Of a stretch of 38,549 nt of DNA, positions 148-38,549 are shown one piece after another; the stretch's first letter is position 1, and the number at the start of each line of letters is the position of its first letter. Under the pieces are notes generated by a model. That model was not told the DNA's origin and searched no databases. It saw only the letters and a list, made by a program, of their open reading frames with translations. The position numbers and the translations under genes are program-made. The DNA is from a virus. The stretch covers positions 1 to 38,549 of the IMG/VR virus record IMGVR_UViG_3300024518_004253; one strand, written 5' to 3'.

Positions 148-396
148 ATCTTCTACCTGATTAACCAATAGTTTAAGAACAGAGTTTTTAATTGTAGACA
201 CTTTTAATACTTCTATTGGGTCCCAAAAATCAAAATATGTAAGATTTTCAATCATAGCCTCTTCATAAATCCTTAATCCTTTTAATTTACCTTGCAAACT
301 AGCTATATCGTTTGGCTTTCCTTCTGTCTCTAATTCTTTTTTAACTTTATCAATTTGAAAACAAATCAATCCCATAATAATTTTAATTAATTCCAT
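1..396 (-). CDS. Hypothetical protein, N-terminal part of a 191-aa gene split by the contig ends
   Basis: The frame begins at ATG 396 (MELIKIIMGL) and is open to base 1. Base 1 is equivalent to 38403, and the same frame continues there to a stop at 38223, giving about 191 residues in the closed genome. The ATG lies inside the 3' end of the upstream 59-aa gene (14-nt overlap), typical of translational coupling. The N-terminus is hydrophobic for about 15 residues, then the protein is charged and helical. The two copies of the repeat differ at codon 90 (TGG Trp here, TGT Cys in the right copy). No family is recognised. It sits among small pre-terminase genes expected to be early or accessory. 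Confidence 0.8.
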   Translation of the reverse strand, partial: MELIKIIMGLICFQIDKVKKELETEGKPNDIASLQGKLKGLRIYEEAMIENLTYFDFWDPIEVLKVSTIKNSVLKLLVNQVEDSEKDERWISIKNMVDSEIEEMKNFLLFRAGNSRSLFLTHGKKNGLYLSR

Positions 397-562
397 GCTG
401 CAGCCCTTTATCCATTTGTATAAAATTAGAATTTTTAATGCAATCCAAACATCCTCCTTTTACTTTTTTAACATCAAAATTAAATCTCTGAGTTCTTTTT
501 GTACAATCTAAACATTTATGAGGAAGAGGTTTTAATTTTAAATCTAGTTTTTTTATTTGCAC
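383..562 (-). CDS. Small zinc-ribbon-like protein (59 aa, GTG start)
   Basis: The frame from GTG 562 gives 59 residues starting MQIKKLDLKLKP. It contains two CLDC knuckles (residues 17-20 and 38-41), the pattern of a four-cysteine zinc ribbon. AGGAG lies 8 nt upstream of the GTG (571-575), which supports the start. That ribosome site is the 3' arm of a perfect 10-bp inverted repeat (565-574 with 615-624), so translation is probably controlled by RNA structure. The end overlaps the start of the next gene by 14 nt. The function is unknown; a small nucleic-acid- or protein-binding role is an inference from the cysteines. Confidence 0.78.
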   Translation of the reverse strand: MQIKKLDLKLKPLPHKCLDCTKRTQRFNFDVKKVKGGCLDCIKNSNFIQMDKGLQHGIN

Positions 563-564
563 TA

Positions 565-652
565 CCTAATCTCCTAATAGATCATAATCTCTTTTGAAAA
601 ACCAAGGAAAGCTGGGAGATTAGGCAACCAACTTTTTCATTCCAAGCCGCAT
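565..652 (-). promoter_or_regulatory. Structured mRNA leader: 10-codon upstream ORF plus hairpin masking the ribosome site
   Basis: In the leftward transcript CCTAATCTCC (624-615) can pair perfectly with GGAGATTAGG (574-565), which contains the Shine-Dalgarno sequence of the GTG gene at 562. A short frame MRLGMKKLVA (ATG 652, TAA 622-620) ends exactly within the 5' arm, so a ribosome finishing it would cover that arm and free the ribosome site. This is the geometry of translational attenuation. The leader ORF has only a weak, distant SD (AAGGAT, 12 nt upstream). The pairing is seen in the sequence; the mechanism is inferred. Confidence 0.55.
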
Positions 653-677
653 AAGCTTAAAACTATCCTTGAAAACA

Positions 678-692
678 TATAACAAAGTTATA
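678..692. promoter_or_regulatory. 15-bp palindrome just downstream of a leftward promoter
   Basis: TATAAC-AAA-GTTATA is a perfect inverted repeat. It falls a few bases downstream of the start site predicted for the leftward promoter at 704-732, where a repressor could block transcription. It could also be chance in AT-rich DNA. Confidence 0.35.
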
Positions 693-703
693 CGATAAAT
701 AAA

Positions 704-732
704 AATATATACTATATGCTTTAAAATTGCAA
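704..732 (-). promoter_or_regulatory. Candidate sigma70 promoter for the 562 gene and downstream genes
   Basis: Reading leftward, TTGCAA (732-727), a 17-bp spacer and TATATT (709-704) begin directly after the methyltransferase stop codon. The predicted start near 697 would give a leader of about 135 nt before the GTG at 562, long enough to hold the hairpin and short ORF described there. Confidence 0.5.
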
Positions 733-740
733 ATATATCT

Positions 741-2333
741 TTATACTTTTAACTGATCTAGAAATTTCATAGAATCAACGACTATTGAATTTCCAGCCAT
801 TTTATATTGCTGACTATTACTAACACCAGAATCCTGTATTTTATCTATATCTACATCTGAAACACCCATTAGCCTAAAACACTCTCTAGGAGTTAACTTT
901 CTTATCCTAAAGGCTGGTTGCTCTAATAAATAGTTATCCTTTTGAACTGATGTTAAAGTATTGTAAACCCCATCCTTTCTAGGTTCGTGGACTCTCATAT
1001 TATGCCTTGACTCTTTAACCTCTCCAGCTTCGTATTTTGCCCTAATATCTTTACCATATTGGGCTCTTACTGTTCTTAAAACTTGGCTTTCTAATAACAA
1101 AGTATCTTTATGAACCGTAGTTAAACAGTTATTTATACCAGGGGTTTTACTCACTTCTAACATTTGCTGAGTAGGTAAACCACTTATTCGACTTTTAGGG
1201 TTTTCAGGGTTTCGTCCTCTTATTGCACATGCTTCTATTATCTTTGGTTGCCTATTACCACCCTGCATAGTCGTTAGCGACGGATAAACTCGCCTAATAG
1301 ATTCATTACCCTTAATATCCAACATGCCAACCATATTTAATTTATTAGATTCTAATATTTTAGGACAATTACCATGTCCAGCGGAATGAGTAGGACTAAC
1401 TCCTGTAGGACTAACAATTACACCGTCCTGAGAAGAACTAACACTTCCTATTTTTAAAATATTATTAGTCTTTTCTACAATCTGAGTACGTCGAGACTTT
1501 CCAATATTTCCCACACTGGTACCCTTATGGTAATTAGCATCAATACAATAAGCTAAACCATCACACTCATAATTACGCTTATAGCCTTTATAGCCTTTAT
1601 AGCCTTTATAGCCTTTATAGCCTTTAGCTTCTAAACCTTCAATTAATTTACAAGTTTTTTCTTCACTTAAATAATATTTTTCATCAACAGAATCTTCCAA
1701 AATATCTTTTAATCTAATTCCACTATCAAAATTATCATAAAATTTAAAAGTTTTTGGATCTTCAGTTTTTAATATAGATACACAAAAAACCCTTTCCCGA
1801 TTCTGAGGTATTCCGCAAAACTTTGCATTTATTACCTTGTAGTAATTATTATACCCCAATTGGTCCAGGACCTGCAGCCACCTATCAAAATCAGGTTTAT
1901 GCTTTTTACCTACAAGATTTTTAACATTTTCCATCATTAAAAACTTAGGCCTTTTTAATTCAATTATCTTTTGACATTCCCACAAAAGAGAGGATCTTGA
2001 GTCGCTACCCTCTTTTAAACCTCTTTGCTTTCCAGCCATTGAAATATCTTGACAAGGGAAACTATAAGTAAACAAATCAAAATCAGGTAATGACAGAGTA
2101 TTTATTTTTGATATATCACCAAAGTTTTTTATATTACCATGCAAAGCCTCATGTGCTTTTATAGCATAAGTATCGATCTCCGAAATACCTACAGTTTTAA
2201 AATTAACACCATATTTTTTTAATGCTAAACTTTGACTTCCATAACCTGAAAAGGCTTCAAAAACTCTTAAAACTTTTTTCTTTTTTTGTGTGGGTTTTTC
2301 ATTATCCACTATTTCTATATTATCAATTAACAT
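741..2333 (-). CDS. DNA (cytosine-5) methyltransferase, 530 aa
   Basis: It transfers methyl from S-adenosylmethionine to cytosine C5, probably protecting phage DNA from host restriction. Family motifs are in order: FSGYGS (28-33, AdoMet), SFPCQ with catalytic Cys94 (91-95), ENV (135-137), QNRER (177-181), and near the C-terminus the PREC.RLMG and AGNSI blocks. Between the two conserved parts lies a long variable region (about 210-470) with several similar short modules of the type LTxVxKDxxLLE, as in phage enzymes with repeated target-recognition units. A five-fold GYK repeat sits at about residues 237-252. ATG 2333 overlaps the stop of the upstream gene. No partner restriction enzyme is present, so it is an orphan enzyme. 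Confidence 0.95.
   Translation of the reverse strand: MLIDNIEIVDNEKPTQKKKKVLRVFEAFSGYGSQSLALKKYGVNFKTVGISEIDTYAIKAHEALHGNIKNFGDISKINTLSLPDFDLFTYSFPCQDISMAGKQRGLKEGSDSRSSLLWECQKIIELKRPKFLMMENVKNLVGKKHKPDFDRWLQVLDQLGYNNYYKVINAKFCGIPQNRERVFCVSILKTEDPKTFKFYDNFDSGIRLKDILEDSVDEKYYLSEEKTCKLIEGLEAKGYKGYKGYKGYKGYKRNYECDGLAYCIDANYHKGTSVGNIGKSRRTQIVEKTNNILKIGSVSSSQDGVIVSPTGVSPTHSAGHGNCPKILESNKLNMVGMLDIKGNESIRRVYPSLTTMQGGNRQPKIIEACAIRGRNPENPKSRISGLPTQQMLEVSKTPGINNCLTTVHKDTLLLESQVLRTVRAQYGKDIRAKYEAGEVKESRHNMRVHEPRKDGVYNTLTSVQKDNYLLEQPAFRIRKLTPRECFRLMGVSDVDIDKIQDSGVSNSQQYKMAGNSIVVDSMKFLDQLKV
1579..1623 (-). repeat. Five tandem 9-bp repeats in the methyltransferase gene
   Basis: TTATAGCCT (plus strand) occurs five times without interruption, followed by a degenerate part-copy. 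It encodes Gly-Tyr-Lys repeats. Because the unit is three codons, slippage would change protein length but not frame. It lies at the border of the catalytic and target-recognition regions. Confidence 0.9.
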
Positions 2334-6164: not shown

Positions 6165-7415
6165 CTACAATTCATTAGATAACTTAACCAAGTCTCTTAT
6201 ATGTTCCTCTACATGTCCAAAAAAGAAACTTTTAATGTCGTTAGCTTCTCCGCTTTCAAGTTTTATATTCTGACTTTTTAAAAATACCTTAAAATCATTA
6301 GCCATTTTAATTAATTTATCTTTATCTGGTGCAAGTGCTGCGGCTGCCTCTAAAGCTGCTTTATTTTCAATCTCTGCTTTATTTTTATTAAAAGTTTTGT
6401 CCTCTTCTAGGGCTTCTACTTGCAAATCAAAAATAACATTAATTTTATCGGCCTCTATTTCAAAGGCTAATTGAATTTTATTATTTTCCGAATTGATAAT
6501 ATTATTGTTATTTTTAACAATATCATTAAACTCTCTTTTATTCATAACTTTTAGAGCATCATAAGAAATAGTCAAACCTTTTTTAATATAATCGCCTCGC
6601 CGTCTTTTTTCGTAATTATCTTTTAATAGTCTTTTGACAAATAGATCCGCTTTATCAGTTAAAACTTTTTCATCGTTAAAAGCTATATTATATAAATGTG
6701 CTTCCTCTTCTATTTCTAGACGTTCTTTATTTAATGAAGCAGTAACCAGGGATTCAAATTCTTCATCAGGCATAATACCAAAATTGATATTTTCAAAATC
6801 TTCAATTAAATAGGCTATTCGGGAACACTTAACAACTCTTTTAGTGTGGAGGTCTATAACTCTCTGTTTTACCTCTTCCTCTTCCTGGATCCTTTTAGCA
6901 TCTGTAGCTTCATCCTCTAAACGCTTCTTGGTTCCATCAAAAAACATTTTATAGGTTTCATCTTCCCAAGTTCCTAAACCTACAGGTTCTTCAAAATCAG
7001 GATCCAAAGTTCTTAACTCTTCAATCCTTTCAACTCTGTTATTTTCAATCATCTCTTTTTCAAGATTCTCATAATAATTTTCAATATCTTTTAGTTTAGT
7101 TTCTCTTTCAGATACCGCAAACTTTAAAATATTATTAACACCGTCAATTGCTTTACCAGCTAATAAATATTCCTGTTTTTGTTCTTTCCTGTTTTTTTCT
7201 GCTTTAATTCTTACCTGGCCTATATCAAGTCTTAACCTTTTAGCTGCTTTACAGGCATCCTCTGACATTTCCATAGATAAAACTTTATTATATCTATCTT
7301 CAAACCCCTCCAACATCTTAACCATTGGTTCAAATGTGTTTTTAATTTGGCTTGCCTTTGATGCTTCAATACCACCAACAACCTCTTCAAATATTACAAT
7401 TGCATTTTCTTCCAT
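6165..7415 (-). CDS. Large coiled-coil phage protein (416 aa), recombination-operon associated
   Basis: The protein is strongly charged and helical throughout, with long coiled-coil stretches at about 85-190 and 300-360 and an Ala-rich segment near 355-365. No enzyme motif is visible. Similar coiled-coil proteins accompany phage single-strand annealing proteins or exonucleases, and this one ends the operon carrying the Rad52/ERF-like gene, so a recombination-accessory role is inferred. The ATG is preceded by AGGTTAGGAGATAATT, a leader box shared with other genes here, and the gene is 2 nt from the upstream HTH gene. Confidence 0.65.
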   Translation of the reverse strand: MEENAIVIFEEVVGGIEASKASQIKNTFEPMVKMLEGFEDRYNKVLSMEMSEDACKAAKRLRLDIGQVRIKAEKNRKEQKQEYLLAGKAIDGVNNILKFAVSERETKLKDIENYYENLEKEMIENNRVERIEELRTLDPDFEEPVGLGTWEDETYKMFFDGTKKRLEDEATDAKRIQEEEEVKQRVIDLHTKRVVKCSRIAYLIEDFENINFGIMPDEEFESLVTASLNKERLEIEEEAHLYNIAFNDEKVLTDKADLFVKRLLKDNYEKRRRGDYIKKGLTISYDALKVMNKREFNDIVKNNNNIINSENNKIQLAFEIEADKINVIFDLQVEALEEDKTFNKNKAEIENKAALEAAAALAPDKDKLIKMANDFKVFLKSQNIKLESGEANDIKSFFFGHVEEHIRDLVKLSNEL

Positions 7416-7417
7416 AA

Positions 7418-7675
7418 TTATCTCCTAACCTTTTTATTTTTTAATCGATATTCTTCAGACATTATTTTTTTAATAATATCTGAAAATAATTCCTTATCAC
7501 CTGTAGCATCTTCATAGTAATCTTTTAATTGGTGAATCCTAGAATCGGGTAATTTCACAACGTCCCTTTCCCATTTACTAACCTCCTGAAGATCAACACT
7601 CATTAATTTCCCCATTTCTGCCTGGGTCAATTTCATTATTGATCTAGCTTGTTTTAATAATAACCATTTTTCCAT
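7418..7675 (-). CDS. Cro/CI-type HTH regulator (85 aa)
   Basis: Residues 7-60 carry a classic XRE/Cro HTH: QARSIMKLTQAEMGKLMSV, then DLQEVSKWERDVVKLP as the recognition helix region. With 85 residues there is no cleavable C-terminal domain, so it is Cro-sized rather than a LexA-like repressor. Its promoter holds a perfect 15-bp palindrome over the -10 box, a good candidate for its own operator. It lies between the HNH-like gene and the coiled-coil gene, with its own promoter. Confidence 0.85.
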   Translation of the reverse strand: MEKWLLLKQARSIMKLTQAEMGKLMSVDLQEVSKWERDVVKLPDSRIHQLKDYYEDATGDKELFSDIIKKIMSEEYRLKNKKVRR

Positions 7676-23192: not shown

Positions 23193-24668
23193 TTAGGCCT
23201 CCACTAATACGACTACATCAGAACTATGAAAAGCTCCTGAATCTTTAGACGCTATTTGAACAAGTGGCGCAACCCTTGCATCTCGTTCTGTCTGTGATTG
23301 TTTACTAATAGGTTCAGCAAACACATAATAACCAAAGTCGGCTATATTTCTTATATGATCCCCAGGGTTTCCAAAAGTTGTTGACCCATTCCACGTTCCA
23401 GGTGCAAACGTTCCATTAGTCACAAATAGAATCATTACCTTTCTATATGAACCTTTAAGTCCGTTTAAACCTTCTTCAGTTTGCGGAATCTTGGTATTAG
23501 TTTGTTTAAGAAAATTAAAACCAGCTATTTGTAGTCTAGTTTTTAAAGCTAGCCTACTATAAACCTGGTCAAAATATCTATTTATACCAGATGTTAACAT
23601 CCCAGGAACACCAAAATCAGCGTATACATCAACACCGTTTTGCTTTGCACTATCTACAGTCGATTGAATTAATCCAGTATCACCAATAAAACCTACAACC
23701 TCTTTTAAATGCATTGTTTGTGCCGTATTGGTTCCATCAAAATTAACAGACAAACCCCTAGAGGCATAAGCAGCTGCAAAGCTTAGAGCATCAGCGGCAG
23801 ATATAGAATAAAATAAACTTCTAGTATGAGTATAACCCTTGTCTTTTAATGTTTTAAATATTCCAACTATATCAGCTAATACACTTGAAGCAACAAAAAG
23901 CAATTTATCAAGCCCCTGAATAGTTAAAGCTAATTCATCAAGATTAGAATCTGTTTGTTTTTCATTTAAAATAATTCCAAAATAATTTATAGAGCCCTGA
24001 GTTCTTAAAACTGCATCCTTAACCCTTTCAAGTCCAGCATCTGCACCAGAAACAGGACCAGGAGGAAGATTTAACAATACTGATATATCCGTACCGGTTC
24101 CAGTTACATCAAGTTCAATAGTCTTGGTTGCCCCGGTTGCTATGGTTTTTAATGTCACTACAGCCGCCGCAAGCTCTCCGGAAACCTCAAAAACTAAACC
24201 AGCACCAGAAACAGCAACACTATTTAGCGAAGTTGTTACACTTGCAATTGAAGTTGTATCAATAGGACCAATTAAAAGATCCGCTGCACCTCCACCGTCA
24301 ACATCAGCATTTATATTATAATCTGACTCTGTTAAGGTTGTTAAGTTCAATGCAGCCGTTCCGCTTAATGTTGCGGGTTTAACTGATGCCGCCTGTTCTC
24401 GAGGGATTACAACTAAAAACCCTTTACCAGTTAAGATATTGGGATTCTGTGAAAAAATAACTTCAGCAAGTGCGAATGTATCACTATTACTTCCAAAATC
24501 CTGTTTAACTCCTTCAGAATTTAAGTAAGTTCTTGAAACTCCAAAATCCCCGGGTATAGGTGCTTCATCTGTTATTATAGCTAATGCAGAGGTATTAATA
24601 TTATTTAATCCTCTTTGTGCTGCTAACAGTGTAACCCTAACCACATTTCCAATGTCTATTTTACCCAT
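23193..24668 (-). CDS. Tail sheath protein, DUF3383 type (491 aa)
   Basis: The N-terminus (IDIGNVVRVTLLAAQRGLN, then ALAIITDEAPIPG) and C-terminal blocks (FGVPGMLTSGINRYFDQVYSRLALKTRLQIAGFNFL; GYYVFAEPISKQSQTERDAR) match the contractile sheath family. Residues about 95-200 are an Ala/Thr/Val-rich beta insertion, probably exposed on the sheath surface. It establishes the phage as myovirus-like. It overlaps the upstream neck gene by 8 nt. Confidence 0.88.
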   Translation of the reverse strand: MGKIDIGNVVRVTLLAAQRGLNNINTSALAIITDEAPIPGDFGVSRTYLNSEGVKQDFGSNSDTFALAEVIFSQNPNILTGKGFLVVIPREQAASVKPATLSGTAALNLTTLTESDYNINADVDGGGAADLLIGPIDTTSIASVTTSLNSVAVSGAGLVFEVSGELAAAVVTLKTIATGATKTIELDVTGTGTDISVLLNLPPGPVSGADAGLERVKDAVLRTQGSINYFGIILNEKQTDSNLDELALTIQGLDKLLFVASSVLADIVGIFKTLKDKGYTHTRSLFYSISAADALSFAAAYASRGLSVNFDGTNTAQTMHLKEVVGFIGDTGLIQSTVDSAKQNGVDVYADFGVPGMLTSGINRYFDQVYSRLALKTRLQIAGFNFLKQTNTKIPQTEEGLNGLKGSYRKVMILFVTNGTFAPGTWNGSTTFGNPGDHIRNIADFGYYVFAEPISKQSQTERDARVAPLVQIASKDSGAFHSSDVVVLVEA

Positions 24669-32527: not shown

Positions 32528-33766
32528 TTAACATAAATCTAACATAGAAAGACCGTTTTTTGTTTTCTCTTCTATAGCATACCTACATGCAGCAATAGCA
32601 TCATCTTTAAATTTAACAGGTTCATCAAGAACATTACCATCCCTATCTTCCTTCCACTTAAACCCTTTAACCTCTGAAGCTAAACCCGGACACTTATCTG
32701 GATCAATAACCCATTCACCACGATTCAACCATGATATTTGTTGACGTACACTATCAGGGCCTTTAATTGCTGGATTTATAGTATATCCGGCTCGTTCCCA
32801 ATCTAATATACTTTTAGGCTCTGCACTATCAGCGGTACAGGCTTCATGTTTTTGTAACATGTTTTGTTTTTCATTTTCTATTATTATTTCGTCATTTGTC
32901 ATTTGTCTAACATATAATTCATCAAAGGAATATTTTACACCGTCTTTAATTCCTATTTTTTGATTAGAATGATAATGATTAAATCCAAAGTCCATTCCGC
33001 ATAATACTTCGTCAAAATCCTCTTCAGTATAATTTACAGTTTCGTATTTAACATTTCTGAAAACTAAGTTTCCAATAGAGCCCCACTTTCCAAGAGCGTA
33101 AACATCATAATAAACCTTATCCTCATATTTTAAGGCCTCTAACTCTTCTTTGTAATCCTTATCTAAAAATCTATTATCCTGGTAGGTTGATTCATGAATT
33201 GTTATTTTACCCTTCTTAGGTCCAGGGTTATCAAAGAACCTGTTTTTAATCCAATGGGTATCTGATACAGGGTTAAACTGCAATGTCATTTGAAAAGGTT
33301 GTTTTGCCTGGCCTCTTAATCTTAGATTCAATTGATTAAAATCTGTTTCCGATACCTCTGTAGCCTCTTCGATAATAACATCTGTCAAAGGTCCATTCTC
33401 AAAAGTAATTGATTTAATTTTCTCTATATCATCTAAACCAGTAAACTTAATTTGATTACCATTAGTTATGCAAGTAATTGTTTGATCTGAAATATTAGCT
33501 TTAAATAATGACTCTAGGCTCCAATCGGCTATACAAGATTTTAATAAAGGCCAAGTACTCATTCTATTAGATCTTCCAGACTTCCTACATACTAAATAAT
33601 TATGCCCACGCTCAGCAACAAGCCTATAAACAACAAGGCGCATGGTATCAACGGATTTACCCGAACCAGCGCCCCCCTTCTTTATTATAAACCTGTTACG
33701 ATCAAACCATAATGGATAGAAGTTTTTATTTACCCATAATGGTATGTCTTTAAATTCTACGTGCAT
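32528..33766 (-). CDS. Terminase large subunit (PBSX-type, 412 aa)
   Basis: This is the packaging motor and headful/cohesive-end nuclease. It shows Walker A GGAGSGKS (31-38), Walker B VIIEEATE (130-137), coupling motif region LQFNP (162-166), and the C-terminal RNase H-like nuclease with CGMDFGFNH (256-264), ADSAEPKS and KFKDDAIAACRYA acidic residues. The length is normal. Its ATG overlaps the stop of the 68-aa upstream gene. The small subunit lies 2 kb upstream, separated by a cassette of small genes. Confidence 0.93.
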   Translation of the reverse strand: MHVEFKDIPLWVNKNFYPLWFDRNRFIIKKGGAGSGKSVDTMRLVVYRLVAERGHNYLVCRKSGRSNRMSTWPLLKSCIADWSLESLFKANISDQTITCITNGNQIKFTGLDDIEKIKSITFENGPLTDVIIEEATEVSETDFNQLNLRLRGQAKQPFQMTLQFNPVSDTHWIKNRFFDNPGPKKGKITIHESTYQDNRFLDKDYKEELEALKYEDKVYYDVYALGKWGSIGNLVFRNVKYETVNYTEEDFDEVLCGMDFGFNHYHSNQKIGIKDGVKYSFDELYVRQMTNDEIIIENEKQNMLQKHEACTADSAEPKSILDWERAGYTINPAIKGPDSVRQQISWLNRGEWVIDPDKCPGLASEVKGFKWKEDRDGNVLDEPVKFKDDAIAACRYAIEEKTKNGLSMLDLC

Positions 33767-36779: not shown

Positions 36780-37652
36780 TCAGGCTTCTACATCAGTTCC
36801 AGAACCACCAAAAGGAACACATACTTTAAATCCCTTCCTTGCAACTGTTTGCAGCATCTTTTTAATTAAACTAATAGGTTTTTGCGTATCATGATCATAC
36901 TTTTTAGTTACATTCACCTGTTGAGAATGTTTAATAACATCAGTAAACCTAAATATATTATTGAAATACCTGGTTAAATGTTCATTCTGAAGTCTTAAAT
37001 CTTCATAATCCTGTTTTAATTCTCTGTATGGTTTTCTTAAATACTTTTGGAACCCATCATCGTTAACATAAGATCTTAATTTATTATAATGTTCTTCAGT
37101 AATCATTGAAGGTTCTTGTTTTTCTAAACTTAATACTGAACTGGCAACACCTCCACCATTGGAGGCGGTACCAATTGCAATATTAACATCCTTTAAAACT
37201 ATTTTACCTTTTGACTTTATTACTTCAGACCTTATGTAATCCCGAACATTATCAACACATAAATTATTTATATTGGTATTTTCTACTGAATAAAATAAAC
37301 AATGTTCTGTTACAGGTGCAAAACAATTATAATTATCTAAACCTTTTCTAGTTTGACAATCTATCTTTTCCCACTTAATAACATTTTCAAGATTAAAGTA
37401 TTTATCTATTATTACCTGACTATATGCAATTTTTTTTGGATGTCCCCACCAGAATAATGATCCAGTATCCTTTAATATCCGCTTACACTCTATAACCCAT
37501 TTCTCAACATCTTTTAAATATGCTTCAAAACTTGGCCATATAAAATCAAATTCTCCTTTAACTTCCCAATACGGACCATCTGCATGAATCACATCTATAG
37601 ACTTATCAGGAATATTATTATTTAAAAAATCCATATGAAATATTTTCTTCAT
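36780..37652 (-). CDS. Beta-class N4-cytosine/N6-adenine DNA methyltransferase, ended early by TGA (290 aa)
   Basis: The start at ATG 37652 (MKKIFHMDFL) overlaps the upstream stop (TAATG) with GGAAGG nearby. The order of motifs, catalytic DGPY (25-28) first and AdoMet motif FGGSG (281-285) last, defines the beta class; WWGHP and DHDTQKPISLIKKM are further family marks. DGPY replaces the usual DPPY, keeping Asp, Pro and Tyr. A TGA five codons after FGGSG removes the last helix-strand. Residues about 125-240 hold a large target-recognition insertion. It probably protected phage DNA from restriction; activity of the truncated form is doubtful. Confidence 0.85.
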   Translation of the reverse strand: MKKIFHMDFLNNNIPDKSIDVIHADGPYWEVKGEFDFIWPSFEAYLKDVEKWVIECKRILKDTGSLFWWGHPKKIAYSQVIIDKYFNLENVIKWEKIDCQTRKGLDNYNCFAPVTEHCLFYSVENTNINNLCVDNVRDYIRSEVIKSKGKIVLKDVNIAIGTASNGGGVASSVLSLEKQEPSMITEEHYNKLRSYVNDDGFQKYLRKPYRELKQDYEDLRLQNEHLTRYFNNIFRFTDVIKHSQQVNVTKKYDHDTQKPISLIKKMLQTVARKGFKVCVPFGGSGTDVEA

Positions 37653-37756
37653 TATTCCTTCCAATCCGTAGGCTTAATAGGAACATAAAAACATCCCTTT
37701 TCAAAAATACACCCACCATTTTTATAGTAAATACACTTTATTAATTTACAATCCAT
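37652..37756 (-). CDS. Tiny cysteine-rich peptide (34 aa)
   Basis: The peptide starts MDCKLIKCIYYKNGGCIFEK and has four cysteines in C-x4-C-x7-C-x5-C spacing, a likely zinc or disulphide knot. It overlaps the stop upstream (TAATG) and the methyltransferase start downstream (TAATG), so it is a coupled member of the operon. The function is unknown. Confidence 0.6.
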   Translation of the reverse strand: MDCKLIKCIYYKNGGCIFEKGCFYVPIKPTDWKE

Positions 37757-38230: not shown

Positions 38231-38549
38231 TAATAACCTCTTCAGTACTCATAAAAAGAGATTCAAACGCATCAACCGAATCAACAACCTCTTCAACCTT
38301 ATCAGGATCTATCATCCTTTGCAAAAGTGGTTCATCCTCTTTCCTCTCTTTCCCTCTCTCAACTCTCCAATCAAATTCATCTATTATTTCTTTTTTTAAC
38401 TCACGAGATAAATATAAACCGTTTTTTTTACCATGCGTCAAAAATAAAGATCTTGAATTTCCAGCCCTGAATAAAAGGAAATTCTTCATTTCCTCTATTT
38501 CAGAATCAACCATATTTTTAATACTAATACATCGTTCATCTTTTTCAGA
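38223..38549 (-). CDS. Hypothetical protein, C-terminal part of the gene split by the contig ends
   Basis: The frame is open from the right edge to TAA/TAG at 38223 and continues the N-terminal part at 1-396. The visible part contains LTHGKKNGLYLSRELKKEI and a very acidic C-terminus (DPDKVEEVVDSVDAFESLF). If the contig were linear, translation could start at ATG 38513 (96 aa), but the open frame upstream and circular closure favour the 191-aa form. Confidence 0.8.
   Translation of the reverse strand, partial: SEKDERCISIKNMVDSEIEEMKNFLLFRAGNSRSLFLTHGKKNGLYLSRELKKEIIDEFDWRVERGKERKEDEPLLQRMIDPDKVEEVVDSVDAFESLFMSTEEVIND
38403..38549. repeat. Right copy of the 147-bp terminal repeat
   Basis: Identical to 1-147 except position 38529 (a) against 127 (c). 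See the left copy; together they define the circular genome length of 38,402 bp. Confidence 0.95.

Follow-up and report, generated by a model that had tools for sequence, protein, structure and literature searches.

A leader RNA resembling int-alpA and predicted to mask the ribosome-binding site of a phage zinc-ribbon gene

Genomic setting of the leader

The stretch of DNA analyzed here (the window, 38,549 nucleotides) is a viral contig with a G+C content of 31.7%. A direct repeat of 147 bp links its two ends (positions 1 to 147 and 38403 to 38549, one mismatch), which makes a complete, circularly read genome likely. In the region that extends leftwards from GTG 562, through the contig junction, and down to about 9.5 kb, the minus strand carries nearly all long open reading frames (ORFs), among them the terminase gene (32528 to 33766) and virion-type genes. 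The first gene of this packaging and structural run encodes a 59-amino-acid CxxC-CxxC zinc-ribbon-like protein, and the leader RNA lies immediately 5' of it, within a 178-nucleotide gap between the stop codon of a C5 cytosine methyltransferase (741) and the zinc-ribbon gene (562 to 383). Its size and place invite the guess, which Pfam does not support, that this small cysteine-pair protein could be a late activator analogous to Ogr/Delta of P2 and P4.

Table 1. Features of the leader and of the gene that it precedes
Feature	Positions	Strand	Details
Promoter-like site TTGCAA-17-TATATT	704-732	-	-35 at 732-727, -10 at 709-704; predicted start about 697; 9/12 match
5' hairpin, 8 bp, at predicted transcript start	676-694	-	Pair probabilities 0.90-0.99
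P1, 5' strand UCAAGGA	666-672	-	Pairs with 608-602; isolated-domain MFE, descriptor, model R1
Junction UA, P1-P2	664-665	-	Matches int-alpA consensus; model R1
P2, 10 bp (663-654/648-639), loop UAUGC	639-663	-	Pair probabilities 0.81-0.97; Rfam int-alpA consensus 4 bp
ORF MRLGMKKLVA, 10 codons	620-652	-	Lies in P2 and P3; judged not to be a functional leader peptide
Junction GAAAAA	633-638	-	int-alpA consensus GAAAA; model R1
P3 GUUGG/CCAGC (632-628/615-611), 12-nt loop UUGCCUAAUCUC (627-616)	611-632	-	Pair probabilities 0.96-0.97
Antisense segment CCUAAUCUCC (5' arm of the first-pass annotation)	615-624	-	10-nt complement of the SD region
P1, 3' strand UCCUUGG	602-608	-	Followed by U-tract 601-597; isolated-domain fold
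T1 GAGAUUA, 7-nt complement of P3 loop	585-591	-	10 nt past P1, like int-alpA tails
T2 GGAGAUUAGG, 10-nt complement of P3 loop region	565-574	-	Overlaps SD AGGAG 575-571; 10 nt beyond T1
Zinc-ribbon gene, putative regulated gene	383-562	-	59-aa CxxC-CxxC zinc-ribbon-like protein, GTG start; ORF

A Shine-Dalgarno sequence within an inverted repeat

A first-pass annotation of this DNA had predicted a leader of 135 nucleotides (697 to 563) between a promoter and GTG 562, and the analysis confirmed this layout. The GTG start is supported by its alignment with an ATG in the one related locus, described below. The promoter itself fared less evenly: taken alone, it is at chance level, with 16 promoter-like sites found versus 15.5 expected from shuffles, but in the relative a 12/12 consensus promoter occupies the corresponding position and aligns with it (12 of 1,000 shuffles, counted over the whole region).

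The perfect 10-bp inverted repeat claimed for this leader, with the Shine-Dalgarno (SD) sequence as its 3' arm, was borne out by exact complementarity and by folding. Its arms, CCUAAUCUCC (624 to 615) and GGAGAUUAGG (574 to 565), are separated by 40 nucleotides, and the helix reaches 13 bp if G-U pairs are counted, with a core pairing probability of 1.00 in the fold of the full leader. It covers the SD AGGAG (575 to 571), 8 nucleotides upstream of GTG 562. A perfect 10-bp helix over the fixed SD arose in 80 of 60,000 leader shuffles (0.13%), corresponding to about 0.08 expected across the 61 gene starts, and a stricter helix rule gave none in a smaller set of 5,000. By opening energy, the SD of 562 ranks fifth of 61 in strength of masking; the start at 24668, of a likely tail-structure gene, is more closed. 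The helix is unusual, not extreme. A search of IMG/VR for the exact arm pair returned no occurrence outside the window. Two other candidate signals were rejected: an operator palindrome, ATAACNNNGTTAT at 679 to 691, which is not enriched, and a late promoter in the 40-nucleotide loop (TATGAT, 586 to 581) that would yield transcripts devoid of the 5' arm, which has no good -35 element and no counterpart in the relative.

A predicted three-way junction

In isolation, the segment from 672 to 602 is predicted to fold into three stems, P1, P2, and P3, with pair probabilities of about 0.6 to 1.0 (outermost P1 pair excepted), mostly about 0.9 to 1.0 and declining toward the ends of P1. In the computed fold of the growing transcript, this junction is the minimum-free-energy (MFE) structure from the completion of the P1 3' strand until T2 emerges, after which the SD helix takes over. 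On this model, the hairpin of the first-pass annotation forms last, in an element that initially folds into the junction. The 40-nucleotide loop, for which a ligand pocket had been suggested, is instead taken up by the P3 and P1 3' strands, the U-tract, and T1, and that suggestion falls away. Pairing of the P3 loop to its own SD was computed at -18.2 kcal/mol, against a mean of -6.1 for shuffled loops, none of 300 being as good.

A syntenic int-alpA RNA in the nearest relative

Searches with the zinc-ribbon gene returned a single relative from IMG/VR and none from either the genome collection or the phage collection. The relative's protein (locus L002, contig G001) is 73% identical over residues 13 to 49. 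Between its promoter and the homologous zinc-ribbon gene, contig G001 carries an Rfam int-alpA RNA (RF02996), scored at 36.3 bits against a gathering cut-off of 35.8. The order of elements there is a perfect TTGACA-17-TATAAT promoter, the int-alpA RNA, a U-rich tract, the SD, and the zinc-ribbon start. The P3 loop of this RNA, UCCACAUU, matches AAUGUGGA directly after the U-tract, and its UCCAC matches GUGGA of the SD.

Loci related through their terminases (64 to 73% identity) had neither an int-alpA RNA nor another leader RNA in the portions scanned. Locus L035 (3022 to 5109) encodes a terminase large subunit with an intein-like insert of about 280 amino acids, inside which lies an HNH endonuclease-like ORF on the opposite strand. 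Another locus (L025, 3556 to 3780) encodes an alanine-rich repeat protein from a GGCGGCATA-like tandem repeat.

Covariation of loop and targets in the int-alpA family

int-alpA RNAs were discovered by comparative genomics, and Rfam types them as sRNA. A literature search yielded no function for them: one article (PMC12370729) merely names int-alpA, and none of the literature searched cites RF02996. Among 299 Pseudomonadota genomes, 49 had a match at an E value of 0.01 or less, 46 of these above the cut-off, and some genomes had four to six copies, six being the maximum. By eye, the Pseudomonadota copies (L038 to L067 and L130 to L169) often follow the end of an integrase-like, RelE-like, or antitoxin-like gene; the genes after them are varied, mostly with no Pfam match (9 of 10 tested).

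The stems P1 to P3 covary across the family, with two-sided changes in 17 of 17 pairs and a score of 0.70, compared with 0.20 after shuffling and no more than 0.22 with the 3' partners slid. Beyond the stems, the P3 loop has two complementary sites, one (T1) where the RNA's own tail ends and the other (T2) at the SD of the following gene. The loop CCUUUCA, for example, faces UGAAAGG twice (L040), CCUCA faces UGAGG twice (L042 and L047), and CCCUGC faces CAGGG and GCAGGG (L054). In the held-out member L145, whose loop is not SD-like, UCCGCA faces UGCGGA and GCGGA.

An alignment-free swap test on 60 int-alpA RNAs from Pseudomonadota scored how well each loop matches its own targets and how well it matches targets taken from other members. 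Across 29 members, matches to the loop's own T1 averaged 5.48 nucleotides versus 4.26 ± 0.16 after swapping, and matches to its own T2 averaged 5.76 versus 4.94 ± 0.17, with 0 of 2,000 swaps as good in either case. The 31 members fetched later and held out gave 5.19 versus 3.91 ± 0.16 for T1 (0 of 5,000 swaps) and 5.39 versus 4.65 ± 0.17 for T2 (1 of 5,000 swaps). Several members are exceptions, with a weak T2 or a next gene that is not obvious. Some of the T2 signal could stem from a preference that anti-SD-like loops have in general, for which the swap test controls, and the effect is modest (5.4 to 5.8 versus 4.7 to 4.9 nucleotides).

These sequence patterns suggest that int-alpA RNAs are SD-antisense elements akin to phage C4 RNA. 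We further propose, at even odds, that the class consists of modular switches in which a single loop chooses between a decoy within the RNA, T1, and T2, the SD of the gene that follows, that the loop is retuned to each gene by coevolution, and that the class extends to an uncultured phage, where it precedes the first gene of the packaging and structural run. Loop-target covariation gives int-alpA a testable job, namely, control over translation of the following gene, and suggests what int-alpA does in mobile DNA.

Assignment of the window leader

The topology of int-alpA (P1, UA, P2, GAAAA, P3, and the P1 3' strand) recurs in the window leader according to the MFE fold, a covariance model, and a shape descriptor. 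The covariance model, R1, was built from 28 int-alpA RNAs with the window left out; it aligns positions 673 to 591 with P1, UA, GAAAAA, and P3 in the expected register, at 9.8 bits and an E value of 0.0024 within the leader. Across the whole window, the leader has an E value of 0.67 in this model and comes second to another site. The descriptor recovers 22 of 31 known int-alpA RNAs (that of L002 included) and has one match in the window, at 672 to 602, with targets of 7 and 10 nucleotides. No match came from 305 kb of other loci, and the G001 copy was the only one in a further 356 kb. Among 5,091 shuffled windows, a single match had both targets of at least 7 nucleotides, a figure that is somewhat favorable, as the descriptor's ranges were set after the window had been viewed and were widened for its long P2.

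Rfam's own RF02996 model, with its cut-off of 35.8 bits, does not report the leader even at an E value of 10, so we do not file it as a member of that family; Rfam scans of the leader gave no meaningful match to any other family, C4 (RF01695) included. The leader also departs from int-alpA in the length of P2, which is 10 bp rather than 4, in being AT-rich, and in its longer complement to the SD (10 nucleotides). Like int-alpA, it is predicted to form a three-way junction with UA and GAAAA(A) joints and a P3 loop of antisense sequence, its T1 lies in the tail and its T2 at the next SD, and it shares synteny with the genuine RF02996 match of its nearest relative. The complementarity of the P3 loop to both targets, 7 and 10 nucleotides here, is a pattern that emerged from this analysis and stands outside the Rfam definition. 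From these resemblances, the leader appears to be a divergent, long-P2 variant of int-alpA, one that probably functions as int-alpA RNAs do and probably shares its origin with the copy in the relative.

The first-pass annotation had looked to related leaders for covariation of the two arms. Such comparison does align the leader with the int-alpA RNAs, in which loop and SD covary, but the repeat emerges as one pairing within a larger element. The pair covariation comes from the int-alpA family, the window's zinc-ribbon gene having a single relative.

Proposed mechanism

We propose, with a probability of roughly three in four, that the leader (697 to 563) contains an int-alpA-like RNA whose P3 loop pairs with the SD-containing T2 and thereby blocks translation of the zinc-ribbon gene. 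The proposal draws on the predicted fold, the two targets, the loop-target covariation of the family, and the syntenic RF02996 RNA of the relative. During transcription, 672 to 602 would fold into the junction, with CCUAAUCUC presented as antisense sequence by the P3 loop, which could then pair either with T1 just downstream or with T2, which holds the zinc-ribbon SD. Pairing with T2, in a helix of up to 10 to 13 bp, would block ribosome entry and keep translation low; the loop-SD pairing is thus probably an off switch for the zinc-ribbon gene. Given its fixed place within the RNA module, T1 may act as a decoy, retaining the loop until something moves it to T2, or it may be a second docking site. 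The central idea of the first-pass annotation, that a leader RNA conceals the zinc-ribbon gene's ribosome site, is upheld.

The RNA might act within one transcript or in trans. In the latter case, a short RNA that ends at the U-tract or is processed from the leader near it would repress the gene on other transcripts, as C4 or P4 CI do, and would serve immunity or timing control. The Rfam typing of int-alpA as sRNA, the U-rich tract that ends the relative's element, and the architecture of C4, which has P1 to P3 and blocks ribosome sites with a loop (PMC5320573), are consistent with action in trans. Against it, P1 followed by five U residues would make a weak terminator in the window, and the P3 loop has no significant target among the other 60 window starts, 42 of 300 shuffled loops doing as well. 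We regard action in trans as somewhat unlikely. Targeting of the GGTTAGG-type SDs of other genes was likewise rejected as not significant. The strong computed pairing to the leader's own SD, with no other window gene standing out, favors action on the RNA's own gene.

Alternative explanations

A simpler reading would make the leader a plain SD-sequestering hairpin of 13 bp with a 40-nucleotide loop, unrelated to int-alpA and acting as a fixed damper of translation. The hairpin helix is indeed the MFE structure of the full leader, but this reading leaves unexplained the UA and GAAAAA junctions, the stems P1 and P3, the target T1 with its family-like spacing, and the RF02996 RNA in the corresponding position of the relative, and we consider it improbable.

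Still less likely is that an AT-rich leader happens to fold in this way. Thermodynamic z-scores are weak by themselves (-1.7 to -1.9; -1.89 for the whole leader), and Rfam makes no call on the leader. Chance would, however, have to account both for a shape and target pair that shuffling produced only once and for the placement of the leader element exactly where the relative has its int-alpA RNA.

Least credible, and rejected here, is translational attenuation of the erm/cat type, which the first-pass annotation had favored and in which a ribosome stalled on the peptide MRLGMKKLVA would open the SD hairpin: the SD is masked by an upstream arm and the 10-codon ORF exists, its stop codon lying within the 5' arm as that design needs, but ATG ORFs of at least 6 codons end in this arm in 12.5% of shuffled leaders, the only SD-like sequence upstream (AAGGA) is 13 nucleotides from the AUG and belongs to P1, so that no SD stands at a usable spacing, the AUG sits in the P2 hairpin loop, and the sole relative (G001/L002) has no homologous peptide.

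Comparison with known RNAs

IsrK and the P4 CI RNA are, like the proposed element, leader RNAs of prophages or satellites that control a downstream phage gene. The closest RNA whose action is understood, C4 of phages P1 and P7, has three stems and is cut by RNase P from a longer transcript; one of its loops covers ribosome sites, and another provides specificity (PMC5320573). Like C4, the window leader is phage borne, with three predicted stems and a loop that would cover a ribosome site. Unlike C4, which uses two loops (a' and b'), it has one loop with two targets. The window leader suggests that the int-alpA design tolerates strong divergence and can escape Rfam, and because so divergent a copy went undetected, more such leaders are probably unnoticed in phage genomes.

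Other observations in the window

The SD-containing string GGTTAGGAGATAAT occurs at 7430 and 9691 on the minus strand, where it precedes two unrelated genes (starts at 7415 and 9677). An N4/N6 DNA methyltransferase (36780 to 37664) is shortened, with 294 amino acids (ending in ...GTDVEA) versus 353 in the relative, possibly through a frameshift or truncation. Finally, the C5 methyltransferase of the window (741 to 2333) and the N4 methyltransferase of the relative (L002, 2720 to 3781) are different enzymes that have in common the N terminus LIDNI(E/Q)IVDN, which resembles an N-terminal tag that has been swapped.
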